Source of the DNA: Ruminococcus sp.
Lineage (GTDB): Bacteria > Bacillota > Clostridia > Oscillospirales > Ruminococcaceae
Assembly: GCA_015066845.1 (NCBI GenBank)
Contig: SVNO01000003.1
Coordinates: 1-64,000, forward strand
DNA: 64,000 nucleotides
Direction of reading: 5' to 3'
Part shown: positions 43,048 to 63,878 of the stretch, one piece after another
How the letters are laid out: every line of letters starts with the position of its first letter
Position numbering within the stretch: position 1 is the stretch's first letter
The notes under the pieces: generated by a model
The model's database searches: none
What the model saw: only the letters and a program-made list of their open reading frames with translations
Told to the model about the DNA's origin: nothing
Position numbers and translations under genes: made by a program

Positions 43048-43062
43048 ATCTCTGCACCTCCC

Positions 43063-45424: not shown

Positions 45425-47290
45425 TTATTTGTATTCAGGGATAAGATAGCCGAGCACGATATAATCTCCGGCAGAAATCATCGCATTCCAGCCATAGGCT
45501 TTGTAACCGTTGGTACAGTCATAATTCACCCATGTACCATTGACAAGCACCTGATTCCAGTAATGGTCGCCCGTGCCGTGGGTTGCATGGACAACGCGGC
45601 AGGTGTAGCCTGCCTCACGCAGGAGGAAATCCATCTTCGCTGCCTCATAATAGCATACCACATAATAATGGTCCATGGAATAGGAAACGAAATGCGTCCA
45701 GCCGATTTCCTCGATCTGTTCAAGCGTCTTGGTCGATTCGATCTTCTTGTAACGGTTGGTCGAACGAACATAGTTGTAAATATCCTTGATGCCAGAACCG
45801 TTCTGCTTGAGAATGTCATGTGCTCTTGCTGTAATATCTGCCAATTCCTGTGACATGGCAACGCCATCTGCATCAATGACATAGCCATCCACAGTCTGGT
45901 TTGTCACCATGATACCGTCCTCGCCGAAGTAACGCCGCACATTGTCGATCGTCTGCCAGCCAACAGCCATCAATCCGTCCTCATTGAAGCAATAGGTTTT
46001 TTCTTCAATGACCTGCCATCCGGTCAGCAGTACGCCCTCCGGTGTAAAATACCGCGTGCCATCGGACATTTTGACAAAGCCCCTGTACATCAGACCATTG
46101 GCGTTGAAATGGTAACGCTTTCCGTCAAGCGTCAGCCAGCCCGAATGCATCACGCCATTCTCATCAAAGTAACGCGTTCCGTCCTGCATGACCTGCCAGC
46201 CGGTGAGGAAGATACCGTCCTTATCAAAATAATAGCGGCTGCCGTCAATCGTCTGCCATTCCTGCGCTCTCGCGCCGGTTTCCGTGAAATAGTAATCCTG
46301 CCCGTCAATGGTCAGCCATTGTGCACATACCGTGCAGCCCGTTTCATCAAAACAGTAGGTATTTCCGCCAATCTGCGCGGTTTCATCCGACAGCATCACA
46401 TTGTCCTCGTTGTAGTAACGCGTTCCGTCCTCAAGCTTCAGCCATCCGGTCAGCAGGGTGTAATTTTCCTGTGCGTAGTACTGCAAGCCATCTTCATCCG
46501 TAACCTGTCCGCGCTGCAAAATGCCGTTTTCATCGGCAAAATATGCCGCATATCCAAGCGGCTTAACCGGCAGATTCGAGCCGATTGCCGCTGCATACTG
46601 CAAAATGATTGCCGCATCCGCCGCGTCAATGACGGAATCCGCGTTGACATCCGCGTGACGGCGGACAATTTCCACCGAGGAAAGCAGGGGATTACCTGCG
46701 GAAAGTACTTCTTCGGCGGTCTGTGTTCCCGAACCTGCAATTGCGGCAGCAATGAGAAGGCTTGCTGCATCCGTACTGCTCACAGCGTCATCACCCTCAA
46801 TATCGCCCACGATCCCATCCGGTACAATGTCGAATTTCCCGTACTGTTTTTCTCCGTTATCATAATAGGAATGTGTACCGTCCGGATTTTCCATAATGCC
46901 ATTCTGCGGCACGGTCGTGTCTGTGTCCTCCTCCGGCTCATCCTCCGTAGGTTCTGTTGCATCCTGCGGCGCATCCTCTGTAGGTTCTGTTGCATCCTGC
47001 GGCGCATCCTCTGTAGGTTCTGTTGCATCCTCCGGCGCATCCTCCGTAGGTTCTGTTGCATCCTGCGGCACATCCTCCGTAGGTTCTGTTGCATCCTCCG
47101 TAGGCTCTGTTTTCTCCTCCGGCTGTGTTGCATCCGGTGCAGTTGGTTCTGCCGTATCCGCCAGGCTTTGCACAAGCAATGCATCATCCGCAGCCAATGC
47201 ATTGGCAGAAGCTCCGATGACCTGCAAGCAAGTGCAAAGGAGCATACCAGCGGTAAGGGAACTGAGCATTTTCAATTCATTCCGTTTCAT
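45425..47290 (-). CDS. Secreted protein: signal peptide, E/D/P/T repeats, dockerin, cell-wall-binding-type repeats, transglutaminase-like domain
   Basis: ~11-aa repeats EDAPQDATEPT; dockerin-like GDIEGDDAVSSTDAASLLIA...ADVNADSVIDAADAAIILQYA; ~20-aa repeats (GWQVMQDGTRYFDENGVMHSGWLTLDGKRYHFNANGLM); C-term DFLLREAGYTCRVVHATHGTGDHYWNQVLVNGTWVNYDCTNG. Start at 47290. Confidence 0.85.
   Translation of the reverse strand: MKRNELKMLSSLTAGMLLCTCLQVIGASANALAADDALLVQSLADTAEPTAPDATQPEEKTEPTEDATEPTEDVPQDATEPTEDAPEDATEPTEDAPQDATEPTEDAPQDATEPTEDEPEEDTDTTVPQNGIMENPDGTHSYYDNGEKQYGKFDIVPDGIVGDIEGDDAVSSTDAASLLIAAAIAGSGTQTAEEVLSAGNPLLSSVEIVRRHADVNADSVIDAADAAIILQYAAAIGSNLPVKPLGYAAYFADENGILQRGQVTDEDGLQYYAQENYTLLTGWLKLEDGTRYYNEDNVMLSDETAQIGGNTYCFDETGCTVCAQWLTIDGQDYYFTETGARAQEWQTIDGSRYYFDKDGIFLTGWQVMQDGTRYFDENGVMHSGWLTLDGKRYHFNANGLMYRGFVKMSDGTRYFTPEGVLLTGWQVIEEKTYCFNEDGLMAVGWQTIDNVRRYFGEDGIMVTNQTVDGYVIDADGVAMSQELADITARAHDILKQNGSGIKDIYNYVRSTNRYKKIESTKTLEQIEEIGWTHFVSYSMDHYYVVCYYEAAKMDFLLREAGYTCRVVHATHGTGDHYWNQVLVNGTWVNYDCTNGYKAYGWNAMISAGDYIVLGYLIPEYK
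46930..47110 (-). repeat. 33-bp-period in-frame tandem repeat
   Basis: Repeats of GGTTCTGTTGCATCCTGCGGCGCATCCTCTGTA encoding EDAPxDATEPT. Confidence 0.9.
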
Positions 47291-47453
47291 TGATAGCACC
47301 CTCTTTTCTGAAAATTCCGGCAGCTGCAAAAGGTCTGCATCCTGCCGCGCGTCCATACATGGAGAGTAGGGAAGTGCTGTTTCAGAAACAGCGATTTTTG
47401 CGAAAATGCGCAAAATTCTGCCCATTTTGCATGATGAACACGGTGATACTATC

Positions 47454-47482
47454 ATTATACACTATTTGACAGCAAAAGTCAA
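47454..47482 (-). promoter_or_regulatory. Sigma-A-like promoter
   Basis: TTGACT, 17 bp spacer, TATAAT on the minus strand. Confidence 0.65.
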
Positions 47483-47598
47483 TATTTCTTTTTTTTGAGG
47501 AAACAATTCCCTCCTCTGAAAGTGATTTCTTTCTCTCCGTCCGATGCTCCTCATCAATCCTTTGTTTCCAATCTGCGCAAAGCTTTCCAAATAAGAAA

Positions 47599-47632
47599 CA
47601 CCCCCGAAACGCTTTGTGCATTTCGGGGGTGA
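47599..47632 (-). terminator. Terminator of paralog 1
   Basis: CACCCCCGAAATGCACAAAGCGTTTCGGGGGTG followed by TTTCTTATTT (minus strand). Confidence 0.75.
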
Positions 47633-47661
47633 GTTTTGGTTTTGTAGGCTATGAAAGGTGA

Positions 47662-50600
47662 TTATTTTTTGAGAATCATCTTCATGAGAACAGCCAGGTC
47701 GAATGCGTCAATTCTGCCGTCGATACAGAAGTCAGCATTCTTGGGTGCTTCTGTTGCAGTAGTGGACTTGAGATACTTCTGCAGTGCAATGACATCAAGA
47801 ACAGTCAGTTCATTGTCGCCATTGAGGTCACCGTATGTTTCCTCATCCACAGAACCATTCACTGTCGGTGCAAAGCAGCCGGGTGTTTTCAGGTTCGGAG
47901 TGTTGGGGAGAATCGGAGCTGCGAGATTCTCGCACTTATCAAATACATTGTCGCCAGCAGTGGTCAGGCTGCAGCTGCCATCCTTGCCTGCGATGCGGAA
48001 TACCTTGAGACTTGTGCAACCGGAGAATGCATAGTTTTCAATGGTTTCTACAGAGGAAGGAAGTGTGATAGCTACAAGCTTATCACATCCAGCGAATGCA
48101 CTGTTTTTAATCGTCTTAAGCTGGGAATTCGGTGCAAAGGTGATGGAAGTCAGGTTGCAGCCAGAACCAAATGCATAGCCTTCGATGGATGTAACAGTTG
48201 CCGGAATGACAACGGACTTCATCATGCCATACATGTTTTTGCGTGCACCTTTGCATTCTGTGTTCATCTGTACAACCGTGTAAACTGTGCCATCCTCTGC
48301 CTTTACAGTTTCCGGAATGACATAGCTTGTAACATTCTTGTCAAATACACCTGTGAATGCAACGGTCTTATCCTCCTTGCTCAGGATGGTGTACATGCCA
48401 TTGTCTACGATAAAGTCATTGCTGCCAACATTGCTCTTGTACTGATACTCGATGGTAACATTTTTGTTCAGGATATGGCCATCAGTTGTGGTACAATTCA
48501 TGAATTCTACCAGTGCAGCTTCATCTCTTTCATCCAGTACACGGTCGCCGTTGATATCGAATTCCTTGTCGCTGTAATTTGCAGGTATTGTACCGTTTAC
48601 GAGGAACGTGCTCTTGAAGAAGTCGTAATCATCGCTGTCGATTCTGCCGTCCAGGTCAAAGTCACCCTGCAGTACAGGACGCTCAACAAAGACTGCATTT
48701 TCTCTCAGGAAGTCAGCCGTTACCTTTACGTCACCGTCAGTTGTTACGGAGTTGTCAGCCAGTACCTTGTACTTGTAAACGGTATCTGTCCAACGAATCT
48801 GGCAGCTGTTCATATCGCCGTTGCACTCTGCAACTGTAATATCGTCACCATTGATGGATGCAATGAACAGGCTGTGACCTGCTGTCGGAGCATTCGGGTC
48901 GGATTCCAGCTCAGAACCATCGGAATACAGACGAATCTGGTCGCCAACCTGCGGTACATATTCCTCAGGCTTGGAATCAGCGGTACGGGTAATCATACCA
49001 TCTTCAATGTAGTAGCGTACAAAGGACTCTGTGCCCCAGATGTCCTCTGCAACCTTTCTTGCAAAACCGCAGCACTGCGGCAGGGACTTGATGGTGCAGT
49101 TGAAATCACCCTTCTTGTCAACGCTGTGTGAGCAGTCATAGTAGCTGTGCCATTTTCTTCCTTCATCAATGGATGCGCTTGTCATAGACAGCTTATGGTC
49201 AAGAGAGAGGCAGTATTCCTTCTTGTTCTTGGAGTGGTCGCAGGGAACAGAAGTTGTGCTGTCCTCAGAACCGTTTGCTTCCATTGCATTCCAGTATTCG
49301 CCATCGGGGAACTTGCTCATTTCAGCAGCAATGCGGTCTTCCCATTCAGAAAGAACAGTGGTGTACTTCACAGCTCTACGCTCATCGCTTACATACTGCA
49401 TTGCCAGTTCCTGCAGATAGGTCGGTGTCTTTGTACCAATAACGAATTCATTGTACAGTGCGGTGTCTGTGCTGTTGAATACGCCATCAAAGTTCATATC
49501 ATTTTCAACAGTGTACATGTACTTGGAGGTATCATTACCGAGGAACTGTACATACTGGGGCTGTTTATCAATACGCTGTACCTTGATACGATCCGTCCAG
49601 CCCTTGATGGTCTGGCTTGTGGAAAGACCTTCACCAGCCAGTACTCTCTGTGTGGGTGTCAGGAACTCGCCATCTCTGAAATAACCGCCCAGCAGTTTTC
49701 TGTCCTCAATACCGAGTACGCCATCCATATTGAGGTCACCGAGATAATAGGACGGGCTGCCACTCATCAGGTTGTAGACATCCTTATCCACTGTGTCACA
49801 CCAACCAATGGTGTAAGCAGTCAGATCACTGATATCCGTACCACCGCCTATCATCAGCTCGGTAGTATCCTCATAGTATGCATTGCAGTACATTTTGAAG
49901 GTGTGGGAATTGCTGTAAATTTCAGTTTCTTTACCGGATTCATTCAGACCATCGTCGTAGTAATCCTTTGCACCATACAGATGTGCGATCTCATGCATGA
50001 GTGTATTGGATCTGTTGTTGTAAACAATTGTATACTCATTTGCATTATTATGGAATTCTGTTTCAGGATTGGATACGATAGCATAGCTTCTGCCGACAGG
50101 AGCATTGAGGTGGAACAGAACCATAACGCCATCTGCATCATACTGTTCCATCAGCTTCTCTGCATAGGGAGACATTTCTGCATCAGCTGCCTTCATCAAG
50201 TCAATTTCGCCATTGGATGCGTTCTTGATCTGCTCCATTACATTGGCAGCGTTACTGCCGGTTCCATCAGGAGATGCGCCCTGATTGTCATCAGCAGTGG
50301 GCATGATGGATATTCTCTTGCCGTTAATGAGGTTCTTATAAGGTTCAACACCCTGGAACAGGATTTCATGCACATCGTCATTCCATGCATTGTATGTGAA
50401 ATAAATGTTCAGGGAGGGATCCGTTACAAATTCCAGATCTGTCACATTGTACTTCTCAGCATTTTCTTCAAAGTTTTTGAGGGACTTTTGGATGCTGCTC
50501 AGACGCTGTGCCATCATATCGGAATAAACGTACTTGCCATGGAAGTCTCCGGTTGTCGGAATAACGTTTGTTTCACCGTTTTTCTTGAAATAGTTGATAT

Positions 50601-51393
50601 AGTCTACATTGTCAAAGGAAACAGCGGTTGCATTGGATGCATCTACTTCCTTGAAGCCCTGCTCCCATGTGGAGTTGAAGGTAACGTCAAGTTCTGTCTT
50701 CGGAATGGAATAAACCTTTGTATAGAAGAAATCGTAATAATTATTCTCCAGGTCATAACTGTCGAAGTCCTTCTTCTCCTCATCACTAAGCTTTGTCCAC
50801 TGGTCAACCTCTGTTTCCAGATCCGGAAGGGATGCGCTTACTTCGTTGAGGAAGATGTTCACAACCACCTGCTTACCGCGCATTTCGCCGGCAGAACCAT
50901 AATGCATGTAGGGGAGAGTTTCATCTGTGAGATAGGTTTCTTCATATTTGGTATCTCTGAAAGCACTATCACGGATTACTCTGGTCGTGGGAGTCATAAA
51001 AACATTTTCCAGATTTGTACAGCCGCCAAAAGCACCATCCTTGATGATTTCTACAGAATCCGGAATTGTTACTGTTGTGAGGTTGGGCAAATTGGAAAAC
51101 GCATTACAGCTGATGTTGGTAACGCCATCCAAGATAGTTACTTTTTTTACAGCTCTTTCAAAAGTGTATGTGTATTTCCAAGGTGCTTTGTGCTGTGCAA
51201 AGTTGTCCATAACGCCGCTTCCGTAAATGGTCAGCTCACCATTGGGATTGAATGCCCAGTAAATGTCTTCACCGCATGAACCGGACTGCGCTGCAGCAGA
51301 TGCAGTCAGCATATTCACCGGCAGTGCGCTGCTGATCGCCATGAGAGAAGCCAGAGAAACAGTCAGTGCTCTCTTGATCATGTTTTTCTTCAT
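47662..51393 (-). CDS. Paralog 1: secreted LRR_5 / HExxH metalloprotease-like / papain-like Cys domain / dockerin protein (1243 aa)
   Basis: Signal peptide. LRR_5 at both ends (AFSNLPNLTTVTIPDSVEIIKDGAFGGCTNL). LMHEIAHLYGAKDYYDDG (codons 49981-49995). QCCGFARKVAEDIWG...GHSLFIASINGDDITVAEC. C-terminal dockerin GDLNGDNELTVLDVIALQKYL...ADFCIDGRIDAFDLAVLMKMIL. Confidence 0.85.
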   Translation of the reverse strand: MKKNMIKRALTVSLASLMAISSALPVNMLTASAAAQSGSCGEDIYWAFNPNGELTIYGSGVMDNFAQHKAPWKYTYTFERAVKKVTILDGVTNISCNAFSNLPNLTTVTIPDSVEIIKDGAFGGCTNLENVFMTPTTRVIRDSAFRDTKYEETYLTDETLPYMHYGSAGEMRGKQVVVNIFLNEVSASLPDLETEVDQWTKLSDEEKKDFDSYDLENNYYDFFYTKVYSIPKTELDVTFNSTWEQGFKEVDASNATAVSFDNVDYINYFKKNGETNVIPTTGDFHGKYVYSDMMAQRLSSIQKSLKNFEENAEKYNVTDLEFVTDPSLNIYFTYNAWNDDVHEILFQGVEPYKNLINGKRISIMPTADDNQGASPDGTGSNAANVMEQIKNASNGEIDLMKAADAEMSPYAEKLMEQYDADGVMVLFHLNAPVGRSYAIVSNPETEFHNNANEYTIVYNNRSNTLMHEIAHLYGAKDYYDDGLNESGKETEIYSNSHTFKMYCNAYYEDTTELMIGGGTDISDLTAYTIGWCDTVDKDVYNLMSGSPSYYLGDLNMDGVLGIEDRKLLGGYFRDGEFLTPTQRVLAGEGLSTSQTIKGWTDRIKVQRIDKQPQYVQFLGNDTSKYMYTVENDMNFDGVFNSTDTALYNEFVIGTKTPTYLQELAMQYVSDERRAVKYTTVLSEWEDRIAAEMSKFPDGEYWNAMEANGSEDSTTSVPCDHSKNKKEYCLSLDHKLSMTSASIDEGRKWHSYYDCSHSVDKKGDFNCTIKSLPQCCGFARKVAEDIWGTESFVRYYIEDGMITRTADSKPEEYVPQVGDQIRLYSDGSELESDPNAPTAGHSLFIASINGDDITVAECNGDMNSCQIRWTDTVYKYKVLADNSVTTDGDVKVTADFLRENAVFVERPVLQGDFDLDGRIDSDDYDFFKSTFLVNGTIPANYSDKEFDINGDRVLDERDEAALVEFMNCTTTDGHILNKNVTIEYQYKSNVGSNDFIVDNGMYTILSKEDKTVAFTGVFDKNVTSYVIPETVKAEDGTVYTVVQMNTECKGARKNMYGMMKSVVIPATVTSIEGYAFGSGCNLTSITFAPNSQLKTIKNSAFAGCDKLVAITLPSSVETIENYAFSGCTSLKVFRIAGKDGSCSLTTAGDNVFDKCENLAAPILPNTPNLKTPGCFAPTVNGSVDEETYGDLNGDNELTVLDVIALQKYLKSTTATEAPKNADFCIDGRIDAFDLAVLMKMILKK

Positions 51394-51685
51394 AATTCTA
51401 CTCCTTTTTTTCTTTTTGACATTTACAATTCAGTTTGCGTGTTTTCAAAGCTTTCTGTGTACCAGTGTGCTGTACATCGGTGCTTAGCGTTCCGGTTCTG
51501 CATGATATCCTGCTGCTGTTCAGCAAAGAAACCCTCCTTCCCCCCTCATGCAGCTGGTTGTATACCGGATTTGTGTTATCATTCTTTCTTGGTAAACTTG
51601 AAACCACGATGTGAGTACGTTTCATTTTTGATTTGTTCAAGAAAAATTCACGGGATTGTTCCTAAAATGTAAATGCCTATTATCA

Positions 51686-51714
51686 ATTTTATCACATTTA
51701 GTTCAAAATGTCAA
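51686..51714 (-). promoter_or_regulatory. Promoter of paralog 1
   Basis: Minus-strand TTGACA, 17 bp spacer, TAAAAT. Confidence 0.7.
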
Positions 51715-52044
51715 TAGATTTTAATCAATTTACATATAGTAAATAAACGAAAAGTGCAAAATTCCATTTTTCTCTCTTTGCAACTGGAAAATATTGCGTT
51801 AACTCTGTTCCGATAATTATCAGGATTTCTCCCTGTGGTAAAAACATGTCGAAGAATTCGGAACACATTATTTTCCCTGAATTGCACATATAATAGAGCT
51901 TTCACCATTGCGCAGCCATCCCTGAATGATGACAAAATGAAAAAATATTGCTATTTTTAAGCATAAAATTGACTGCCACAGTTGATGGAAATCAAGTCTA
52001 AAAAGTGCTATCGGCACATTTTTTTGAACGCTTTTCAAGAATGT

Positions 52045-52117
52045 GTCTAAATTGTTAAAAATATTACGAAATGTAGAAAAATGTTCAGAATGATTATTTT
52101 TTCAAATTCTGCTGACA
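52045..52117 (+). promoter_or_regulatory. Truncated plus-strand promoter-like region lacking a -10 and a downstream gene
   Basis: GTCTAAATTGTTAAAAATATTAC, then 45 bp later TTCAAATTCTGCTGACAAATG, matching upstream regions of the 56854 and 60408 genes; homology stops after the -35. Confidence 0.6.
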
Positions 52118-52163
52118 AATGCAGATCTCCCGATTTGAACGCAAAGCCTTCCAAATAAGAACC

Positions 52164-52200
52164 CCCCGAAACACTATGTGCATTTCGGGGGGTGATTTTT
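52164..52200 (-). terminator. Terminator of paralog 2
   Basis: CCCCCCGAAACACTATGTGCATTTCGGGGGG hairpin; homologue of 47599-47632. Confidence 0.7.
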
Positions 52201-52223
52201 GGTTTGTAGGCTATGAAAGGTGA

Positions 52224-55200
52224 TTATCTTTTGAGAATCATCTTCATGAGAACAGCCAGGTCGAACGCGTCAATTCTGCCATCGATACAGAAGTCAGCAT
52301 TCTTGGGTGCTGCTGTTGCAGTAGTGGATTTGAGATACTTTTGCAGTGCAATGACATCAAGAACAGTCAGTTCTTTGTCGTCATTGAGGTCGCCGTATAC
52401 TTCCTCATCCTTGGAACCATTCACTGTCGGTGCAAAGCAGCCAGGTGTTTTCAGGTTCGGAGTTTTGGGGAGAATCGGAGTTGAGAGATTCTCGCACTTA
52501 TCAAATACATTGTCGCCAGCTGTGGTCAGGTTGCAGCTGCCGTCCTTGCCTTCAATGCGGAAAATCTTGAGGCTTGTGCAGCCGGAGAACGCATAGTTTT
52601 CGATAGTTTCTACGGTATGCGGGAGAGAGATGCTTACCAGCTTATCGCATCCAGAGAATGCACCGTTTTTAATTGTCTTAAGCCGGGAATTCGGTGCAAA
52701 GGTGATGGAAGTCAGGTTGCAGCCGGAACCGAATGCATAGCCTTCGATGGATGTAACAGTTGCCGGAATGACAACGGACTTCATCTTGCCATACATGCTA
52801 TTGCGCGCGCCTCTGCATTCTGTGTTCATCTGTACAACCGTGTAAACTTTGCCATCCTCTGCCTTTACAGCTTCCGGAATGACATAGCTTGTAACATTCT
52901 TGTCAAATACACCTGTGAATGCAACGGTCTTATCCTCCTTGCTCAGGATGGTGTACATGCCATTGTCTACGATAAAGTCATTGCCGCCCACAAGGCTTCT
53001 GTACTGGTACTTGATGGTGACATTTTTGTTCAGAATATAGCCATCAGCTGTGGATTGCTTCATAAATGCCTGCAGTGCAGCTTCATCCTTCTCATCCAGT
53101 ACGAAGTCGCCGTTGACATCGAATTCCTTGTCGCTGTAATTTGCAGGTGTTGTACCGTTTACGAGGAACGAGCTCTTGAAGAAGTCGTAATCATCGCTGT
53201 CGATCTTGCCGTCCAGGTCAAAGTCACCCTGCAGTACAGGACGCTCAACAAAGACTGCATTTTCTCTCAGGAAGTCAGCTGTTACCTTTACTTCACCGTC
53301 AGTTGTTACGGAGTTGTCAGCCAGTACCTTGTACTTGTAAACGGTATCTGTCCAACGAATCTGGCAGGTGTTCATATCGCCATTGCACTCTGCAACTGTA
53401 ATATCGTCACCATTGATGGATGCAATGAACAGGCTGTGACCTGCTGCCGGAGCATTCGGGTCGGATTCCAGCTCAGAACCATCGGAGTACAGACGAATCT
53501 GGTCACCAACCTGCGGTACATATTCCTCAGGCTTGGAATCAGCGGTAGGGGTAATCATACCATCTTCAATGTAGTAGCGTACAAAGGACTCTGTACCCCA
53601 GATATCCTCTGCAACCTTTCTTGCAAAACCGCAGCACTGCGGATACTTGCCAATTGTGCAGTTGAAATTACCCTTCGGGTCAATGCTGTGAGAGCAGTCA
53701 TAGCGGCTGTGCCATACTCTGCTTTCATTGATGGATGCGCTTGTCATGGACAGCTTATGGTCAAGGGACAGGCAGTATTCTTTCTTGTTCTTGGAGTGGT
53801 CGCAGGGAACAGAAGTTGTGCCGTCCTCAGAACCGTTTTCTTCCATTGCATTCCAGTATTCGCCATCGGGGAACTTTCTCATTTCAGCAGCAATGCGGTC
53901 TTCCCATTCAGAAAGAACAGTGCTGTACTTCACAGCTCTATGCTCATCACTTACATACTGCATTGCCAGTTCCTGCAGGTAGCTCGGAGTCTGTGTGCCT
54001 GTCACGAAAGCGTCATACAGTGCAGTGTCCTTGGAATTGAAAACGCCGTCAAAGTTCATGTCGTTCTCAATGGTGTACATGTACTTGGAAGTATCATCAC
54101 CTTGGAACTGTACATACTGGGGCTGATTTTCAATACGCTTTGCGGAGATGTGGTTTGTCCATGCCTTGATAGTCTGGCTTGTGGAAAGACCTTCACCAGC
54201 CAGTACTCTCTGCATAGGTGTCAGGAATGCATCGCCATTGTAGTAAGCACCAAGCAGCTTTCTGTCAGGAATACCAACTGTACCGTCCATGTCGATGTCA
54301 CCGAGGTAATAAGGTGTTGCGCCGTTCATCTGATCGAAAACATCCTTCTCTACTGAATCGATCCAGCCGAGTGTATAAGCGGTCAGAGCATTGAACTTAT
54401 TTGTGTTGTCCGTCATCATATCCGGGCAATTTCTGAAATAAGTGTCGCAGTACATCTTAAAGGTGGGAGAACCGGAAGTGATTTTTCCGTTGACATTGGA
54501 GTTCTTCAGACCATCGTCATAATAGTCCTTCGCACCGTATACATGGCAGATTTCGTGCATGATGGTGTCGATAGAATTGTTATACAGCATAACGAATTCT
54601 TCGCCGTTGCTCTGTTTCTCCTTCATTGTCTGAATTGCATAGGATCTGCCCCAGTAGCATTCATCCAGATGGACAAGCACAATTACGCCATCTGCATTGT
54701 ACATGTCCTTCACCTTCTGTGCATAAGGAGACATTTCAGCATCATCTGCTTTCAGCAGGTCGATTTCGCCGTTGGTTGCATTATAAATCTGCTCAAAAAC
54801 ATTACGAGTACCGCTTCCTTTTCCAGAGAGGGGAGAAGACTTATCACTGGAGGAAGGCATGAGTGCATTATCCTGTGTGGGAATAATGGAAGGATGGGTG
54901 TCATTTAGGCGATGCTGATAGGTTACACCATCTCTGCCGATGGCTTCGCGTGTGCCATCATCCCACGTATTGTATGTGAAATGGAAGTTGAGAGAAGGTT
55001 CTGTAATGAAGTCCAGATCATTGATACCGTAGGATCTTGCGGATTCTTCCAGCTTTGTCAGTGCGGTGTTCAATCTGATGGAGTGTTCCTCCATTTTGTC
55101 GGAGCGAACGTAAGTGCCATAGAAGCCCTCATTCTGAGGAAGAACGGAGGTGTCGGACTTTACATAGGCAGGATAGTTTGTCGGATTGAGGGAAACAGCC

Positions 55201-55967
55201 ATTGCTGTTTCGTCATTGACAGCTTTGTAACCCTGCTGCCATGCAGAAGTATAATTCTGGAAAGCAAGCTTATTCTTTTCAATGCGGTAAGTTTCAGTAG
55301 CGTCATGATAAGAATCATAATAATACTTATCCAGGTCGTAGCTGTCAAAATCCAGTTCCTCATCGCCCGTGATCTTGGTCCATTCAGCACGTCCGTCAGC
55401 TGAGTCCAGACTCGGCAGACCAATGGAAAGCTCATCAAGGAAGATATTCACAACCACCTGCTTACCGCGCATTTCGCGGGCAGAACCGTAGTTCATATAC
55501 GACAGTTCTTCTGTTGTGAGATAGGTTTCTGCATACTTTGTACCAGCAAAAGCACCATCAATAATGACTCTGTCCGTGGGTGTCATGTAGACGTACTCCA
55601 GATTTGTGGAATCTCTAAATGCATTAAGACCGATCATTTCTACAGAATCCGGAATTGTTACTGTGGTAAGAGCTGTGAAATCGTAGAATGCAACTGCACT
55701 GATGTTAGTAACACCATCAGCAATCGTGATTTTGGTTACAGCATTACTGAGCTTTTGCCATGGTCTCATATGATGCAGATAGTTGTCCATAACACCATTA
55801 CCAGCAATTGTCAGCTCACCGCTTGGATCATACGACCAGTACACACCATCACCGCATGAACCACCCTGAGCCGCAGAAGCAGTCAGCAAATTGAACGGCA
55901 GTGCGCTGGCAGCTACGAGAGAAGCGAGAGAAACAGTCAGTGTTCTCTTTATCATGTTTTTCTTCAT
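52224..55967 (-). CDS. Paralog 2: same architecture as paralog 1
   Basis: MKKNMIKRTLTVSLASLVAASALPFNLLTASA signal. IMHEICHVYGAKDYYDDG (54543-54557). QCCGFARKV...GHSLFIASINGDDITVAEC. C-terminal dockerin. Start 55967 after AAAAAGGAGTAG. Confidence 0.85.
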   Translation of the reverse strand: MKKNMIKRTLTVSLASLVAASALPFNLLTASAAQGGSCGDGVYWSYDPSGELTIAGNGVMDNYLHHMRPWQKLSNAVTKITIADGVTNISAVAFYDFTALTTVTIPDSVEMIGLNAFRDSTNLEYVYMTPTDRVIIDGAFAGTKYAETYLTTEELSYMNYGSAREMRGKQVVVNIFLDELSIGLPSLDSADGRAEWTKITGDEELDFDSYDLDKYYYDSYHDATETYRIEKNKLAFQNYTSAWQQGYKAVNDETAMAVSLNPTNYPAYVKSDTSVLPQNEGFYGTYVRSDKMEEHSIRLNTALTKLEESARSYGINDLDFITEPSLNFHFTYNTWDDGTREAIGRDGVTYQHRLNDTHPSIIPTQDNALMPSSSDKSSPLSGKGSGTRNVFEQIYNATNGEIDLLKADDAEMSPYAQKVKDMYNADGVIVLVHLDECYWGRSYAIQTMKEKQSNGEEFVMLYNNSIDTIMHEICHVYGAKDYYDDGLKNSNVNGKITSGSPTFKMYCDTYFRNCPDMMTDNTNKFNALTAYTLGWIDSVEKDVFDQMNGATPYYLGDIDMDGTVGIPDRKLLGAYYNGDAFLTPMQRVLAGEGLSTSQTIKAWTNHISAKRIENQPQYVQFQGDDTSKYMYTIENDMNFDGVFNSKDTALYDAFVTGTQTPSYLQELAMQYVSDEHRAVKYSTVLSEWEDRIAAEMRKFPDGEYWNAMEENGSEDGTTSVPCDHSKNKKEYCLSLDHKLSMTSASINESRVWHSRYDCSHSIDPKGNFNCTIGKYPQCCGFARKVAEDIWGTESFVRYYIEDGMITPTADSKPEEYVPQVGDQIRLYSDGSELESDPNAPAAGHSLFIASINGDDITVAECNGDMNTCQIRWTDTVYKYKVLADNSVTTDGEVKVTADFLRENAVFVERPVLQGDFDLDGKIDSDDYDFFKSSFLVNGTTPANYSDKEFDVNGDFVLDEKDEAALQAFMKQSTADGYILNKNVTIKYQYRSLVGGNDFIVDNGMYTILSKEDKTVAFTGVFDKNVTSYVIPEAVKAEDGKVYTVVQMNTECRGARNSMYGKMKSVVIPATVTSIEGYAFGSGCNLTSITFAPNSRLKTIKNGAFSGCDKLVSISLPHTVETIENYAFSGCTSLKIFRIEGKDGSCNLTTAGDNVFDKCENLSTPILPKTPNLKTPGCFAPTVNGSKDEEVYGDLNDDKELTVLDVIALQKYLKSTTATAAPKNADFCIDGRIDAFDLAVLMKMILKR

Positions 55968-56263
55968 AATTCTACTCCTTTTTTCTTTTTGACATTTACG
56001 ATTCAGTTTGCGTGTTTTCAAAGCTTGCTGTGTACCATTGCCATTGCTGCAGGTCATCGGTGTTCAGTGTTTCGGTTCTGCATGACATCCTGCTGCTGTT
56101 CAGCAAAGAAACCCTCCTTCCCCCCTCATGCAGTTGGTTGTATACCGTATTTGCGTCCTCATTTTCTCTTATACCTCTGAACCTCCGATGTGAGTGCATT
56201 TCATCTTTGATTTGTTCAAGAAAGAATATGGAATCACTTCTGAAATGTAAATGCTTATCACCA

Positions 56264-56292
56264 ATTGTACCACATTTTGCCTAAAATGTCAA
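56264..56292 (-). promoter_or_regulatory. Promoter of paralog 2
   Basis: Minus-strand TTGACA, 17 bp spacer, TACAAT. Confidence 0.7.
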
Positions 56293-56690
56293 TAGGTTTT
56301 AATCGATTTACATATAGTAAATGGAAAGCAAGCGAAACTGCCCCATTATTTCCTGATCTTCTGGAAAATATTGCGTTTATTGTATTGGAGCAATTTCCGA
56401 CCATTCCTGCGGACACATCAATATGCTGAAAAAAACAGGAAAGCTGTGTGATTCGGAAATTGCGTGAATAATTCAGTTTTTGATTTTGATTATCCATCTC
56501 TGAAGTCCTGTCGGAATATCAATATCTTGCTGGTTTCCGCACAAAATTGACTTAAAAAGCATACAAAATCCAGTCTAAATAGTGCTAACGAAGAATGGCT
56601 TGACTGTAATTTCTAAATTTTGTCTGAAATATTAAGAATATTACAGTCAGTAAAGAGAAAAGCTCTAATTTATGATTCGTTCAAATTCTA

Positions 56691-56719
56691 TTGACAAATG
56701 AAGAAAAAAATGCTATGCT
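56691..56719 (+). promoter_or_regulatory. Promoter of paralog 3
   Basis: TTGACA, 17 bp spacer, TATGCT; GTCTGAAATATTAAGAATATTAC element at 56622-56644. Confidence 0.6.
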
Positions 56720-56720
56720 T

Positions 56721-56760
56721 AAGGCAATACTGCACAGAGGACAGTGCATCAGCGATGTAT
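56721..56760 (+). repeat. AAGGCAATACTGCAC-family short repeat inside the paralog 3 leader
   Basis: Similar to 20155 and 22099. Confidence 0.4.
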
Positions 56761-56853
56761 CCGCGACTGCCAGCACTCGCTGGGCATCTGCTTCATATTT
56801 GCTGTGGATTGTAAGTTCAGTATAAAAATACAATTATAACAAGGAGTAGTACA

Positions 56854-59800
56854 ATGAAAAGAAATACAATGAAACAGACAATTGCCGTCTTTCTCGCTTC
56901 GCTCATGGCGGTTCAGGCTGGCGGCAGTTATCGGTTTCCATTGAGCGCGTTCGCAGAGGAAGTGCCGTATACAGGCACATGCGGCGAGTCACTTGAATGG
57001 CTCGTCTTGGGTAACGGGGTACTGAAAATCACGGGAAAGGGCAATATGCCGGACTATACGCAGCAGGATGCGCCGTGGGAAATGCACAGGGAAACAATCC
57101 GTGAGGTGCATCTCGGTGACGGCGTGGCATCCATCGGCGCGGATGCCTTTTCGCAGTGCACAGCTCTTGAGCGTGTGCAGATTCCCGATTCTACGCAAAA
57201 AATCGGTGCAAATGCATTCAAGGACTGCCAGTCCCTGCGATATGTGCTGATGAACCAGACAAGCAGGGTGATTGTGGAAAATGCATTCGAGGGCACGCCG
57301 TTTTTACAGTACTACACCACCGAGCAACTGAAAGGCATGGACAAGGGCGCGGCTGGTCTGATGCGCGGAAAACAGCTTGTTGTCAACATTTTTGTGGATG
57401 AAGTAACGAAAACTGAGGATGATTCCTTAGTGATTGCAGATTCATGGCAGCCCGAACCGGATGCCGGCAATGAACATGCTCCCGTACTGCTCGACTGTGA
57501 TAATTTCTATGCCTATCTCCGCACAGATGATACGGACAAAACCGTTTTGCCGCAGGATTCCACGGATGCTGCAGGACAGCCCGTGTCCTCCGAAGCCATT
57601 GCCGGACGGCTTGCGGCGTTGGAGCATGTACTGACAGAATTTGAAACGCAGTCAGAGGAATTCCGGACGGATCCCGATACAAAGCTGCTGGAATTTGTCG
57701 AAGGTCCGAACTATTTTTTCACCTATCAGGCAACGGACGGCGCGGTGAGTATTGCCGGCGATTCACTCATGATCGGCGGAACATACAGCAATGGTGCGGA
57801 ACTGATGCGGCAGCTCACAGAGGTGTCCGGTCAGCAGGTCGATCTGCGTACACGAACGGACAGTGAGATGAATTACAGGGAAATGCTCATGGAGGAGTAC
57901 GATGCCGATGGTGTACTGTTTCTGTTCCATCATAACGCACCAACTGGTAAAACCATAGTGTTCCCAGAAGATTCCTACGAAGAATGTGCCATGCTCTGCA
58001 CGGACGAGGAAGCAGTGCTTGCGGAACAAATTCTGACGATGTACAGCGCGAACGAAACGGAATACGGCATTCCGGCAATTGCCGCACCAATCGAAAATGG
58101 CGAAAAACCGTATACATTGATGCTCTGCAACGGTTCACTTCTCAATTCTGATGTACCGGATGGGCAAGTCAGTCCGCTGTCTGCCTATGTCCGCGGCTGG
58201 AATCGCACGATTGAATCGTCCGTGTATTTCATGCTTGGCAGCGGAAAGAACTATCCACTCTTTGATGTGAATCTGGACAGTACGTACAATGAGGATGATG
58301 CTGAACTGATTTCCGGCTATTTCAAGGGAGAATATCATTATGAACCTGCCGACATCTACGGTACGGAGAACAGCTGTTATCTGCCCCCGTTGAAGCGTAT
58401 GTTTGCAGGTTACGGCATTTCGGGTGTCTATACCGGCATTGAGGGTTGGACGAATGATGTGAATATTGAAAGCTATGGGGATGCTGGATTATTGAAAATT
58501 TCCAATGCCAAACACCCCGGCAGCATCCTGCGCCCCTGCAACGATGTGAATTTTGACGGACTGGTCACAACGGGTGATAAGGACTTACATGATTCCTATC
58601 CGTTCCATGACGGCTGGGCAGATGTCAACTATCTGCAAGCTGTAATGATTCTCAAATCGAAGTCAAGCAAATTCCCGCAGCCCTTTACCATTGGCAGGGA
58701 TACATGGTATTTTGCTAATGATAAGAGCTTTTTCGGCGAAACGTACTCCATGAAGAAGGGACATAAGAAGCTTCTGGAATCGATTTCTTCAGAAATTGGA
58801 CAATGGAACAGCAACCGCTTTTTGCATGAAGACCAATTCGCTGGCTCGTGCTACGGCATGTGTGCAACGACATTGCTGACATATTACGGACTGGTTCTGC
58901 CGCAGCAGCTCGATGAGGACGCAAAAACGCTCCATGATGTGGGTACGGGAAAGAACAGCGAGGCAGAATCCATTGAATCCTATATCAATTATTACCATGT
59001 TTCCCAGCGTTTCAAAACACAGCGCAGCAATCTGTTTGCCTATCCGGATTTGCCCCCGATTGCATCCATTCTTGCCTGTCTGGACGATGGCTCTCCCACC
59101 ATTGTTTCCTACAAATACGCAAAGGGTGAACATGCGGTTATTGCGTATGGTGTCACTTACGGCAGATACATGGTCAACAATCTCACCTATGACGGGAAAA
59201 TCCAGATTTATGACCCCGACCATCCGGACGGTGACGATACATGGTGCATTTATTTCAAAAGCTTTGCACCATCGGAATACTGCATCCCTGGTCGAAACGC
59301 ATTTTCTCAGGACGAAACCCTGACCATTCTCGGCGCGCAGGACAAGCTCTCCGTTATTAATGACGAGGTACTCGTTGAGGGAAAAGTTTCCCTGCACCCC
59401 GAAAAACGCTTCAATGCATCCGTGAGAGCTGCGGATATGATCACGGACTATGCGTTCGGAAAGGGGACTACCCTCCCTGACGTAGTAAAGAACACTGAAA
59501 TCGGCAGTGATATCATTGTCCCTGCGCAGATTGCAGGTATGGGCGAGTCCGTGTATTTCATGATGGACGCAAAATCGCCCTATTTCCTGAAGCTGGAAAC
59601 CCCTAATGAGTTTGACGTACAATTGAATTATCCCGACTGCAAACTCCATGCCTACAGCATAAACAGCACGTCCGTTATCTTCTATCACAAAGGGAAAATC
59701 GAAATGCAGGCAAGGGGAACAAGCTACGAATTCTGCATGGAGGAGGAAACCAGTGTCACCGATTGGGAAAGCATCACTGTCAAGGATGAGAAAACCGGCG

Positions 59801-60204
59801 ACGCGGCATTGGAACGTGCGGAGGATGGCTACCTGCTGACTTCCTCGGACATGGCAGATGTCAACGTGATTTGCACAGCACCGGGTATCTGTGCGGAGGT
59901 CACCTTTACAACGGACTACGAGAAAGTATTCCTCTATGAAATTGACAAGTACACCATCGGTGTTGCTGTGGATGCGGACGGTGACGGCACATTTGAAACT
60001 CCCATCGCCCAGAGTGACGAGGGAACAGCAGGCGACCTGAACAACGACAAGGCTTTTACTGTGCTCGATTTAGTTGCAATGAAACGTTGGCTGCTTTCCG
60101 GCAATGTAAAGCTTATCAACAGCAGAAATGCCGATTTTACGAAGGATGACGTTCTGGATGGATTCGATTTTGCCATTATGAAGCGCAAGCTTCTGGAAAG
60201 CTGA
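56854..60204 (+). CDS. Paralog 3: secreted LRR_5 / degenerate protease-like / C39-like Cys domain / dockerin protein (1116 aa)
   Basis: Signal peptide. LRR_5 (AFSQCTALERVQIPDSTQKIGANAFKDCQSL). GSCYGMCATTLLTYYGL...GEHAVIAYGVTYG. Dockerin GDLNNDKAFTVLDLVAMKRWL...ADFTKDDVLDGFDFAIMKRKLL. Confidence 0.85.
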   Translation: MKRNTMKQTIAVFLASLMAVQAGGSYRFPLSAFAEEVPYTGTCGESLEWLVLGNGVLKITGKGNMPDYTQQDAPWEMHRETIREVHLGDGVASIGADAFSQCTALERVQIPDSTQKIGANAFKDCQSLRYVLMNQTSRVIVENAFEGTPFLQYYTTEQLKGMDKGAAGLMRGKQLVVNIFVDEVTKTEDDSLVIADSWQPEPDAGNEHAPVLLDCDNFYAYLRTDDTDKTVLPQDSTDAAGQPVSSEAIAGRLAALEHVLTEFETQSEEFRTDPDTKLLEFVEGPNYFFTYQATDGAVSIAGDSLMIGGTYSNGAELMRQLTEVSGQQVDLRTRTDSEMNYREMLMEEYDADGVLFLFHHNAPTGKTIVFPEDSYEECAMLCTDEEAVLAEQILTMYSANETEYGIPAIAAPIENGEKPYTLMLCNGSLLNSDVPDGQVSPLSAYVRGWNRTIESSVYFMLGSGKNYPLFDVNLDSTYNEDDAELISGYFKGEYHYEPADIYGTENSCYLPPLKRMFAGYGISGVYTGIEGWTNDVNIESYGDAGLLKISNAKHPGSILRPCNDVNFDGLVTTGDKDLHDSYPFHDGWADVNYLQAVMILKSKSSKFPQPFTIGRDTWYFANDKSFFGETYSMKKGHKKLLESISSEIGQWNSNRFLHEDQFAGSCYGMCATTLLTYYGLVLPQQLDEDAKTLHDVGTGKNSEAESIESYINYYHVSQRFKTQRSNLFAYPDLPPIASILACLDDGSPTIVSYKYAKGEHAVIAYGVTYGRYMVNNLTYDGKIQIYDPDHPDGDDTWCIYFKSFAPSEYCIPGRNAFSQDETLTILGAQDKLSVINDEVLVEGKVSLHPEKRFNASVRAADMITDYAFGKGTTLPDVVKNTEIGSDIIVPAQIAGMGESVYFMMDAKSPYFLKLETPNEFDVQLNYPDCKLHAYSINSTSVIFYHKGKIEMQARGTSYEFCMEEETSVTDWESITVKDEKTGDAALERAEDGYLLTSSDMADVNVICTAPGICAEVTFTTDYEKVFLYEIDKYTIGVAVDADGDGTFETPIAQSDEGTAGDLNNDKAFTVLDLVAMKRWLLSGNVKLINSRNADFTKDDVLDGFDFAIMKRKLLES

Positions 60205-60316
60205 GTACACTCGACTGCTCTGCAATTTTCAGTCTGTAATTTTTGTGTGTCTGAACTGTTAATAATATTACAAACGGTAAAATCAACGATTTAATTTATT
60301 TTTTGTTCAAAATCTC

Positions 60317-60345
60317 TTGACAAATCAGAAATAAGATGCTATGAT
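60317..60345 (+). promoter_or_regulatory. Promoter of paralog 4
   Basis: TTGACA, 17 bp spacer, TATGAT; upstream element GTCTGAACTGTTAATAATATTAC at 60249-60271. Confidence 0.7.
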
Positions 60346-60407
60346 AGTAATAGGCATTTACTTTTTTTGGGAAACTTGCCTGAAAAATATGCAAAAGGAG
60401 TAGTATT

Positions 60408-63400
60408 ATGAAAAAAAGACCAATGCGAAAGACAATCATTGCCTGCCTTGCTGCGCTTTTGGCTGTCAATGCTGCATTGCCTGCGCAATATATTGACTTG
60501 CGCGCAAATGCAGAAATGTCAAGCTTTGAGAGCGAGGTGCTGGATAAGGGTTCTACCGGTGAATCCGTCATCTGGACCCTTGACGAGAATGGTGTCATGG
60601 AGATCAGCGGTAATGGCGATATGGGTAATTACAACCCCGATGGTATTCCGTGGCTGCTGTACAGAGAAATGATCAAGGAAGTTGTGATCCGTGAAGGCGT
60701 AACAGGCGTAGGTGATAATACCTTTGCTGAGTGTGAAGCACTTGAACGTGTGTATATTGCTGATTCTGTAAAAAGAATCGGTCAGAGTGCGTTTGCAGGC
60801 TGTACAAATCTGACGGAAGTGACTATGAACCCGACCGACAGAATCATTATCGAAAATGCGTTTGAGGGTACGGAGTTCTACAAGGATTATTACACAACTG
60901 CGACTCTTCCGGGAATGAATAAGGGCGCAGCCGGTACGATGCGCGGAAAGCAGCTGGTTATCAACGTATTCGTTGACGAGGTTGTCGGAGAAAACGGCGG
61001 CGAGTTTACCATCAGCAATTCCTGGCAGCCCGACACAGCCGGTGCATCCAAGAATAATCCTGTACTGCTCGACCGTAACAACGTTTACAAGTACCTTACC
61101 GCAAGCACTACGGACAAGACCTATCTGCCGCAGAATCCTGACGATTCCGTCACAGATAAGCCCGTCACCTCCATTGCAATCGAGCAGCGTCTGACTGCAC
61201 TGAACAATGTGTTCGCAAAGCTGGAAAAAGAAGCAGACGCTTTCAAAACGGATGATGAAACAACAATGCTCGAATTTGTCAATGGCCCGAGCTATTTCTT
61301 CACCTATCAGGCAGTAAATGGTGCGGCAAGTCTTATGGATGAAAATGGTGCGGAAACAGTTATTTCCCCCAGCCAGACTGGCGCATCTTTCATGGATCAG
61401 CTCCTGCAGCTGTCCTCTGGTCAAACATTCAACCTGAAAATTGACCAGAACACCAAGAAGTCCCAGCTTATGGATAAACTTCTGAAAGAGCATGAGTGCG
61501 ACGGCGTACTGTTTCTGTTCCATCATAACGCACCGGATGGTACATCCACGGTATTTGCAGAGGAAACATACGAGGAAGTTTCCGTGCTCTACAGCAGCGA
61601 TGAAGCGGACATTGAAAAGCAGATTCTGGGCGCATATGGTGCAGCTGAGGATGAAAGCGGTATTCCGACCGCTGTACCGGACGGCGACCACAATGCATTG
61701 AAAATGTACAATGGTGCTTTGAGAAACCCTTCCGGTCCGAAGGACCATGTCAGACCGTTGACAGCCTTTGTTCGTGGTTGGAACACCCAGATTGAAAAGG
61801 ATGTTTTCAATCTGATGAAGTCCGGTACGAATGTTTCGCTTCTGGATATGAATATGGATGGTACTCTCAGCACGGAGGACGAAAAGATTATTACCGCATA
61901 TATCAAGCGGGAAGAAGGTGCAAAGGATTCAATTACTTACTTCACTCCTTTCAAAAGAATGCTGTTTGGCAGCGGGCTTACTGTATTGGATTCTGATATT
62001 CAAGGCTGGACAGACCAGATTTCCGTTGAAAGATGGATGTATGATCCGGCTGATGATTATCATGAGGATGGGGTGAAACGGTCCTATCTTGTAGATAATC
62101 GTAAGGATGATTTCAACTGCGTTAAATTTATCAATAAGGCAGATGGCAGCTGCATCATGCGTCCCTGCAACGATTTGAATTTTGACGGATTAGTTACCAC
62201 TGGTGACCAGGAGATTTATGGCAGTTTTTCATCTGTTGACGGTAATAACTTTGTGCAGTGCATGATGTTTTATCATTATAATCCCAGAGAAGACAAAGCT
62301 CCGAGACCGTACAAAATTGGTGTGGATACATGGCGTTTTGAGAATGATGATTATTCTTTTGGCAGTACCTACACAATGACTGACGAGCATGCAGCTGCCG
62401 CAAAGGAATTATACAGAGGCGATGCCGATTACCGTGAAGTTTATACTGGGAATGGGCCTTTTGGCGGTTCCTGTTATGGAATGTGTGTTACCTCCATTCT
62501 GAGTTATTATGGGATTATCAGTCCTTCCATTCTCGATTCGAGTGCTGTTACTGCATATCAAGTGAACCAAAACAATGGCCTCGCTTTGCCTAAAGACCTT
62601 GAATCTTTCATCAATTATTATCAAACGTCGCAATACTTCTATGTACAGCTTGAAAACAGACACACTTATTCTGGAATAAAAGATGATGAAAGTGTTCGCG
62701 GAATCCTTGAATGTCTTGAGGATGGTTCACCCACAGTTGTTGGAACTATACATTATACTTACTATACAGATCGTAAAAAGGACTATTATCCGGGCCATGC
62801 AGTTGTTGCGTACGACGTTGAATACGGTATTGAATACAAGGAGCCCAAAAGGCCAGATGTAGTATTCGATGCAAGAATTCTGGTTTACGACCCGAAATAC
62901 AGGTACTTCAAGGATGAATGCTGTATTTATTTCTGCAGCGATGATCCGACAAAATTCTGCATTCCGGCTCAAGAAATCTATTATGATACAAATCCCGATG
63001 ATATATACGATGTCATTAAGTTTACAGAAATAATGGATGATCTGTCTGTATTGAACAGCAATGGTCTTGTGGACGGCACAATGGGCTTCCGTTATAAAGC
63101 ACCGAAAGCCTCTATCGAATCCATGAGCATGTCGTCTGACTATTTAATCGGCAAGGGGACAAACATCACCTCTGATAACACCATCAACCCCGACAACATC
63201 ACAACCGATGACAGCTCCATTTACTACATGGAGGACGGTGACGCATCCTACTACCTTCAGAATGCAACTCCCAACCCCTTTAACGTACAGATGAACTACG
63301 AGAACTGCACACTCAAGGCAAATGCAAGCAATGGCTCATCCGTTGTATTCTCTCCCAAGGGTAAAATCGAGCTTTCCGGTAAGAACACTGACTTTGAGCT

Positions 63401-63878
63401 GGAAATGGACCTGAATCCGGAGACAAAGGTAACCGACTGGAACACCATGACCATCAAGGGCAAGAAGTCAGGTGGTGCAGTATTTGAAAAGGTTGACGGC
63501 GGTTATCTGCTGACATGTTCGAATCTCTCCGACATTGAAGTTATCTGCACCAGCCTTGGCATCAGCGCAGATGTAAACTTTACAACGGATTACGACAAGG
63601 TATTCCTCCACGAAATCGACAAGTACACCATTGGTGTATCCGTGGATAAGGATGGCGACGGTGAATTTGAAACCCTCATCGCCAAGAGTGCCGAGGGCGT
63701 AACAGGCGACCTGAACAACGACAAGGAATTCACTGTACTCGACTTGGTTGCAATGAATCAGTGGCTGCTTTCCGGTGATGGAATGCTCATCAACAGCGAA
63801 TATGGTGACATTACAAAGGACGGCGTACTGGACGGTTTCGACCTTGCGGCTATGAAGCGCATGATTCTGACAAAGTAA
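60408..63878 (+). CDS. Paralog 4: same architecture as paralog 3 (1156 aa)
   Basis: LRR_5 (TFAECEALERVYIADSVKRIGQSAFAGCTNL). GGSCYGMCVTSILSYYGI...GHAVVAYDVEYG. Dockerin GDLNNDKEFTVLDLVAMNQWL...GDITKDGVLDGFDLAAMKRMIL. Confidence 0.85.
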   Translation: MKKRPMRKTIIACLAALLAVNAALPAQYIDLRANAEMSSFESEVLDKGSTGESVIWTLDENGVMEISGNGDMGNYNPDGIPWLLYREMIKEVVIREGVTGVGDNTFAECEALERVYIADSVKRIGQSAFAGCTNLTEVTMNPTDRIIIENAFEGTEFYKDYYTTATLPGMNKGAAGTMRGKQLVINVFVDEVVGENGGEFTISNSWQPDTAGASKNNPVLLDRNNVYKYLTASTTDKTYLPQNPDDSVTDKPVTSIAIEQRLTALNNVFAKLEKEADAFKTDDETTMLEFVNGPSYFFTYQAVNGAASLMDENGAETVISPSQTGASFMDQLLQLSSGQTFNLKIDQNTKKSQLMDKLLKEHECDGVLFLFHHNAPDGTSTVFAEETYEEVSVLYSSDEADIEKQILGAYGAAEDESGIPTAVPDGDHNALKMYNGALRNPSGPKDHVRPLTAFVRGWNTQIEKDVFNLMKSGTNVSLLDMNMDGTLSTEDEKIITAYIKREEGAKDSITYFTPFKRMLFGSGLTVLDSDIQGWTDQISVERWMYDPADDYHEDGVKRSYLVDNRKDDFNCVKFINKADGSCIMRPCNDLNFDGLVTTGDQEIYGSFSSVDGNNFVQCMMFYHYNPREDKAPRPYKIGVDTWRFENDDYSFGSTYTMTDEHAAAAKELYRGDADYREVYTGNGPFGGSCYGMCVTSILSYYGIISPSILDSSAVTAYQVNQNNGLALPKDLESFINYYQTSQYFYVQLENRHTYSGIKDDESVRGILECLEDGSPTVVGTIHYTYYTDRKKDYYPGHAVVAYDVEYGIEYKEPKRPDVVFDARILVYDPKYRYFKDECCIYFCSDDPTKFCIPAQEIYYDTNPDDIYDVIKFTEIMDDLSVLNSNGLVDGTMGFRYKAPKASIESMSMSSDYLIGKGTNITSDNTINPDNITTDDSSIYYMEDGDASYYLQNATPNPFNVQMNYENCTLKANASNGSSVVFSPKGKIELSGKNTDFELEMDLNPETKVTDWNTMTIKGKKSGGAVFEKVDGGYLLTCSNLSDIEVICTSLGISADVNFTTDYDKVFLHEIDKYTIGVSVDKDGDGEFETLIAKSAEGVTGDLNNDKEFTVLDLVAMNQWLLSGDGMLINSEYGDITKDGVLDGFDLAAMKRMILTK

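Follow-up and report, generated by a model that had tools for sequence, protein, structure and literature searches.

We identified an island of four paralogous genes near the end of a 64,000-nucleotide stretch of a Ruminococcus sp. genome (GCA_015066845.1, contig SVNO01000003.1, positions 1 to 64,000; hereafter the window). Two genes lie in tandem on the minus strand (M1 and M2) and, back to back with them, two lie in tandem on the plus strand (P1 and P2). Each encodes a predicted secreted protein that combines leucine-rich repeats (LRRs), a metallopeptidase-like core, a cysteine/histidine module, and a C-terminal dockerin. We read the island as a probable lineage-restricted expansion, one whose secreted products would lend proteolytic capacity to the cell surface or to a cellulosome of the Ruminococcus type, a surface-borne apparatus by which a gut bacterium such as this one breaks down plant fiber. 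The genome is a draft of 2.21 Mb in 106 contigs, 93% complete, and the window lies on contig C35 (64,107 bp).

Domain organization and common ancestry

The four open reading frames (ORFs) encode proteins of 1116-1247 amino acids, all with a signal-peptide-like N-terminus (Table 1). M1 and M2 share 71% protein identity, and P1 and P2 share 42%. The M and P proteins align with each other at 26-29% identity over their first 650-720 residues, with E values down to 4e-70, and beyond this region the alignment resumes only in the dockerin and LRR stretches. Shared by all four are an N-terminal LRR_5 block, a core of ~300-390 amino acids, a split EF-hand module, a Cys/His module, and a C-terminal dockerin. 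Both LRR_5 (E 4e-12 to 3e-37) and Dockerin_1 (E 2e-8 to 3e-17; 62.9, 61.7, 34.7, and 35.2 bits against a cut-off of 22.9) score above the Pfam cut-offs in every protein, and the four dockerins have the paired calcium-binding loops of type I. In M1 and M2 there are, in addition, dockerin-like matches inside the protein and another LRR block, their second. These comparisons point clearly to a common ancestry and bear out an earlier interpretation of the window from its letters alone (the sequence-only reading), which had proposed four paralogous secreted dockerin proteins.

A metallopeptidase-like core

The cores of M1 and M2 contain the Asp-type metzincin motif HEXXHXXGXXD, which is absent from P1 and P2. 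The sequence-only reading had singled out MRGKQ and YDADGV as conserved segments of the four proteins; they are conserved but not separate, as both align with one domain, that of a family of standalone proteins with the motif HEXXHXXGAXD. An initial scan of a genome collection using the window core as the query found no relatives. Among 38 genus-level genomes, no full core was found besides the window's own; an extra genus-level match, in G405, covered the dockerin only and was ruled out as a core relative. Searching 398 family-level genomes with a profile yielded one further full-core protein (L053 in G258, with an LRR block, a core bearing HEMLHLYGVYD, and EF hands) plus two distant standalone proteins; this search is a sample, and incomplete assemblies may account in part for the absence from sister genomes. 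A profile including the standalone relatives had matches in 46 of the 396 order-level genomes, and a query built on them confirmed 288 relatives in a scan of GTDB, the best 80 of which come from groups that include Clostridia, Bacteroidales, Spirochaetes, and Planctomycetes.

Standalone members are mostly 270-530 amino acids long and secreted, with the pattern G-S-A...V..F..D, GRSYA, HEXLHLFGAxD, P-N-D-I-M, TAYxxGW. None of the tested relatives or window cores exceeded the cut-off of a Pfam or NCBIfam model for the core domain. Among named peptidase families (M6, M12, M64, and others), the best scores were 23.0 bits for Reprolysin_5 (cut-off 27) and 14 for M6dom (cut-off 110.8), and a sequence comparison of the core with PDB chains gave no meaningful match. 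Judging from these searches, the core family is widespread and without a Pfam or NCBIfam model. Some members are fused to SLH (L107, L166), MORN (L166), or LRR_5 domains, and another (L096) appears by eye to have a dockerin-like head and MORN-like repeats.

The best reading of the core is a metzincin-like domain, with its fold predicted. An AlphaFold 2 (AF2) model of the M1 core built from 46 sequences reached a predicted template modeling score of 0.70, with predicted local distance difference test (pLDDT) values of 80-95 in the main elements. At the Met-turn position, the relatives have DIM; by eye, M1 has ELM and M2 has MM there, and a MAFFT alignment places another Met at this position. 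Metzincins with Asp as the third ligand (snapalysins, thuringilysins, and igalysins) resemble M1, M2, and their relatives in the HEXXHXXGXXD motif, and the downstream Met is conserved in the relatives (PMC12237041). They differ in that the window core has no Pfam or NCBIfam score over a cut-off and no significant fold match. In igalysins the Gly is preceded by an additional residue that the window motif lacks (PMC12237041), and membership of M64/igalysins was not adopted because of this difference in spacing.

Loss of the zinc site in P1 and P2

Profile comparisons make the homology of the P core to the metallopeptidase domain secure: hhalign linked it to the M core with an E value of 1.6e-28 and to the standalone family, without M as an intermediary, with a probability of 93.5 and an E value of 2.4e-7. 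In a maximum-likelihood tree, the four window cores and L053 form a clade (support 100/99) within which M1 groups with M2 (99/97) and P1 with P2 on a long branch (100/100); the grouping of M and P against L053 is weak (81/36). Because L053 and the other relatives in this tree keep the zinc motif, the simplest reading is that it was lost once, before P1 and P2 split. In blocks of 80 amino acids, P1 and P2 are 40-53% identical across the zinc-less core and 31-45% identical across the C39-like module described below.

In their core domain, P1 and P2 are, by these comparisons, ordered and conserved pseudo-peptidases, for which a lack of activity is predicted. The absence of the zinc residues from both could also be read as decay into functionless copies. 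We find this very improbable, given that the frames are open over their full length and preceded by promoter-like sites, that the core is conserved to the extent given above, and that the loss of the site would predate the P1/P2 split.

Two unlike cysteine modules

The papain-like module that the sequence-only reading had placed in all four proteins proved to be two different modules, CHAP/NlpC-like in M1 and M2, where it is followed by a dockerin-like pair, and C39-like in P1 and P2, where the shared motif is SCYGM...HAV(I/V)AY...YDP. In both kinds, a Cys, a His, and an acidic or polar residue occur in order and are kept, at the motif level, in the relatives inspected; the putative papain-like assignment of both (C39 or CHAP/NlpC type) is based on this order. 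Neither kind exceeded a Pfam cut-off (Peptidase_C39_2, 15.7 bits against 24 on the C39-like module; Peptidase_C70, E 0.084 on a relative), and neither had a meaningful match by sequence among PDB chains.

Of 299 family genomes, 18 encode relatives of the C39-like module, and the relatives inspected have a similar beta-domain followed by a dockerin tail, with heads that are LRR or cohesin-like. Two further C39-like proteins of this layout are present in the same genome as the island. A sister species (G140) has three C39-like genes on one contig (C7), two of which were inspected (L203 and L212) and end in a dockerin, with cohesin-like and LRR heads, and a further LRR-headed C39-like protein on another contig (C40, L186). 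The CHAP/NlpC-like module has relatives in 4 of the 299 genomes, with eight matches in G297 alone.

An alternative is that the targets are the envelopes of the bacterium itself or of its rivals, with both modules acting as peptidoglycan or peptide-crosslink hydrolases and not as general proteases. Where the function of NlpC/P60-type modules has been proven, they are gamma-glutamyl endopeptidases; R. flavefaciens has an NlpC/P60-like module on a dockerin-bearing protein (PMC3573020), and the neighboring transglutaminase-like gene (T) encodes choline-binding repeats. The missing Pfam and PDB matches of the two modules speak against this alternative, and the separate metallopeptidase domain argues for protein substrates; we regard it as improbable.

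The proteins might instead be mainly adhesins or substrate-binding display proteins, with protein ligands bound by the LRR blocks and by peptidase domains that are inactive or slow, and with any proteolysis a side effect. Consistent with this are the LRR_5 block in all four proteins, the second LRR block in M1 and M2, the retention of the core in P1 and P2 despite the lost zinc site, and the abundance of LRR-dockerin proteins in R. flavefaciens, which has 28 LRR modules (PMC2930009). M1 and M2, however, retain a whole zinc motif, and in the relatives inspected neither kind of Cys module has lost its Cys, His, or acidic or polar residue; a display function is in our view unlikely. The sequence-only reading had offered proteolytic, adhesive, or crosslinking roles. 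Proteolysis is upheld by motif for M1 and M2 (HEXXHXXGXXD plus the Cys/His module) and for P1 and P2 through the Cys module only, and we found no direct support for adhesion or crosslinking beyond the LRR blocks and one transglutaminase-like neighbor.

Dockerins, cohesins, and a proposed function

The genome contains 118 Dockerin_1 matches, many of them on enzymes of glycoside hydrolase (GH) families GH5, GH9, GH10, and GH48. The Pfam cohesin model gave a single partial match in this genome, and a profile seeded from a PDB-matched cohesin recovered four full single-cohesin domains that the Pfam model had missed, including one with a wall-anchor-like tail, one in a lipoprotein-like protein, and adaptor forms (Table 1). 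Because 118 dockerin matches occur alongside four full cohesin domains, a docking system appears to exist, and cohesins coexist with dockerin-bearing plant-wall enzymes as in a cellulosome. The scaffold attachment suggested by the sequence-only reading, which depended on cohesins being encoded in the genome, is supported both by these domains and by the scores of the island dockerins over the curated cut-off.

We sorted 109 dockerin places outside the window into three types using hand-made patterns. One type, on 30 proteins, is found mainly on GH5, GH9, GH10, GH48, and similar enzymes. The type seen in the window occurs on 40 other proteins, a mixed set including LRR, GDSL, transglutaminase-like, GH43, GH26, and GH18 proteins. 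A view based on 10 proteins, that the window type marks non-carbohydrate proteins, was dropped, as among the 40 it is also present on GH43, GH26, and GH9 enzymes. In R. flavefaciens, dockerin groups differ in their cohesin partner, and group-4 dockerins, including that of a peptidase, bind the cell-surface-anchored ScaE (PMC5301203).

In the cellulosome-linked proteolysis that we favor, the four proteins would be secreted, as their signal-like N-termini suggest, and their dockerins would then bind cohesins on the cell or on an adaptor. M1 and M2 may hydrolyze protein through both the zinc site and the CHAP/NlpC-like site. P1 and P2 may act through the C39-like site, with the zinc-less domain serving as a binding or regulatory module. 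Likely targets would be protein in the plant wall or on neighboring or host surfaces.

Several observations weigh against this proposal. A Foldseek search with the M1 core model returned nothing significant; its top matches include zinc peptidases (ADAM17/TACE and astacin types, ADAM17 being the best) at E values of at least 0.2 and TM-scores of at most 0.34. The AF2 prediction for the P2 C39-like module had a pLDDT of 36 and yielded no usable model. Saturation of synonymous sites between P1 and P2 prevents a clean measurement of selection on the zinc-less domain, and no ratio of nonsynonymous to synonymous divergence is claimed. In R. flavefaciens, most dockerins of LRR proteins bound none of the tested cohesins (PMC5301203).

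More tentatively still, and with some doubt, we suggest that a family of secreted Asp-type zinc peptidases, widespread and so far uncatalogued, may have been joined to the cellulosome through LRRs and dockerins, with one branch becoming pseudo-peptidases that act as a regulatory or targeting partner of the active pair on the same scaffold.

Probable gene conversion between M1 and M2

Up to residue 570, M1 and M2 are 39-66% identical in amino acid sequence, and synonymous sites in the core are saturated or nearly so; past residue 650, identity is 85-96% and synonymous divergence is 0.06-0.35. At fourfold sites, a step in identity from 0.59 to 0.89 falls near M1 residue 657 (log-likelihood -219.2 to -194.3). 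The 3' halves look to have been homogenized by gene conversion, which fits because both ends, leader and tail, are homogenized around a diverged core. Diversification of the core only is disfavored, because the synonymous divergence of the tail would then have stayed unlowered.

The 5' leaders of M1 and M2 (51394-51760 and 55968-56322, minus strand) are ~290 nucleotides long and 84-88% identical, promoter-like site included. Elsewhere in the genome, the shared leader has only one weak match of 42 bp, and no Rfam family was found in the window, leaders included.

Locus layout and neighboring genes

Both M1 and M2 start at MKKNMIK, after an identical GGAG-containing stretch; the start of the 1277-amino-acid ORF listed for M2 falls inside its 5' leader. 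A promoter-like site, by consensus match only, lies 5' of each of the four genes. The dockerin-bearing, transglutaminase-like neighbor noted in the sequence-only reading was recovered by profile search and stands outside the paralogue family. Close to it, at 41593-44541 on the minus strand, is what appears by eye to be an SGNH/AlgJ-like and MBOAT-like gene pair, comparable to those of cell-wall polysaccharide O-acetylation. At 38161-41369 on the plus strand, the genes look by eye like a LytTR-type response regulator and a GHKL-type sensor kinase followed by a membrane protease of the CPBP type, a set reminiscent of an Agr-like module.

Table 1. Features of the island, the adjacent gene T, and cohesin proteins encoded elsewhere in the genome. 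SP, signal peptide; positions are those of the window.
Feature	Position	Strand	Description or basis
M1	47662-51393	-	1243 amino acids; SP-LRR-metallopeptidase (intact zinc motif)-split EF hands-CHAP/NlpC-like-internal dockerin-LRR-dockerin
M1 promoter-like site	51686-51714	-	TTGACA-17-TAAAAT; consensus match only
M1 metallopeptidase-like core	49744-50883	-	homology to standalone HEXXHXXGAXD family; AF2 model
M1 zinc motif	49963-49995	-	HEIAHLYGAKD; residues 467-477
M1 split EF-hand pair	49441-49743	-	
M1 CHAP/NlpC-like Cys module	48673-49242	-	QCCGFA...GHSLF...AECNGD; motif level
M1 C-terminal dockerin	47665-47835	-	
Terminator-like hairpin 3' of M1	47599-47631		consensus match only
M2	52224-55967	-	1247 amino acids from MKKNMIK; architecture as M1
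M2 promoter-like site	56264-56292	-	TTGACA-17-TACAAT; consensus match only
M2 metallopeptidase-like core	54306-55472	-	homology to standalone HEXXHXXGAXD family
M2 zinc motif	54525-54557	-	HEICHVYGAKD; residues 470-480
M2 split EF-hand pair	54003-54305	-	
M2 CHAP/NlpC-like Cys module	53235-53804	-	motif level
M2 C-terminal dockerin	52227-52397	-	
Terminator-like hairpin 3' of M2	52161-52193		consensus match only
P1	56854-60204	+	1116 amino acids; SP-LRR-pseudo-metallopeptidase-split EF hands-C39-like-beta domain-dockerin
P1 pseudo-metallopeptidase core	57361-58254	+	zinc position AEQILTMYSAN at 58021-58053
P1 split EF-hand pair	58258-58605	+	
P1 C39-like Cys module	58693-59283	+	GSCYGM...HAVIAY...YDP; motif level
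P1 C-terminal dockerin	60028-60201	+	
P2	60408-63878	+	1156 amino acids; architecture as P1
P2 pseudo-metallopeptidase core	60939-61835	+	zinc position EKQILGAYGAA at 61614-61646
P2 split EF-hand pair	61839-62234	+	
P2 C39-like Cys module	62319-62960	+	Peptidase_C39_2 E 0.024, below cut-off
P2 C-terminal dockerin	63702-63875	+	
T, transglutaminase-like neighbor	45425-47455	-	Transglut_core, dockerin, choline-binding repeats
Cohesin protein L066	contig C68		cohesin and C-terminal wall-anchor-like tail
Cohesin protein L067	contig C74		cohesin, lipoprotein-like
Cohesin protein L068	contig C73		cohesin-dockerin
Cohesin protein L036	contig C10		cohesin-C39-dockerin

Relation to known systems and significance

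Dockerin-bearing peptidases, LRR proteins, and transglutaminase-like proteins are already known (PMC2930009, PMC3573020, PMC5590126). R. flavefaciens FD-1 has secreted non-carbohydrate dockerin proteins of all three kinds, and a clustered set with conserved C-termini and varying N-termini resembles the island; as far as those descriptions extend, they differ in including neither the combination of LRR, HEXXHXXGAXD core, EF hands, and Cys module nor a pseudo-metallopeptidase (PMC2930009, PMC5301203). RflaF_05439, a ScaE-linked protein with tandem NlpC/P60-like modules and an X-dockerin, is likewise a dockerin-bearing Cys/His protein of a Ruminococcus cellulosome (PMC3573020), but it is without a metallopeptidase core or LRRs, and the window Cys modules have no PDB sequence match to it. 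The scaffoldins ScaO/ScaP of C. alkalicellulosi and A. cellulolyticus each bear a peptidase together with a cohesin and a dockerin, a trait shared by the C10 protein of this genome; these scaffoldins differ in having other module sets (PPC, Rhs, and galactose oxidase) (PMC6780208). A search of the open-access literature for cellulosomes together with pseudoenzymes or pseudopeptidases found nothing relevant. What is new is the combination of modules, the occurrence of an uncatalogued metallopeptidase family in dockerin-borne form, and the split between active and pseudo forms.

Cellulosomal peptidases have been proposed to remove protein embedded in biomass and to supply nitrogen (PMC6780208), and their role is experimentally undefined (PMC5590126). 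The locus offers a compact test of that role: one domain is present in a pair of copies predicted to be active and a pair predicted to be dead, all four proteins bear a dockerin, and the genome encodes four candidate cohesins as well. A further point of interest is the metallopeptidase family itself, which was seen in Clostridia, Bacteroidales, Spirochaetes, and Planctomycetes and for which we found no Pfam or NCBIfam model.

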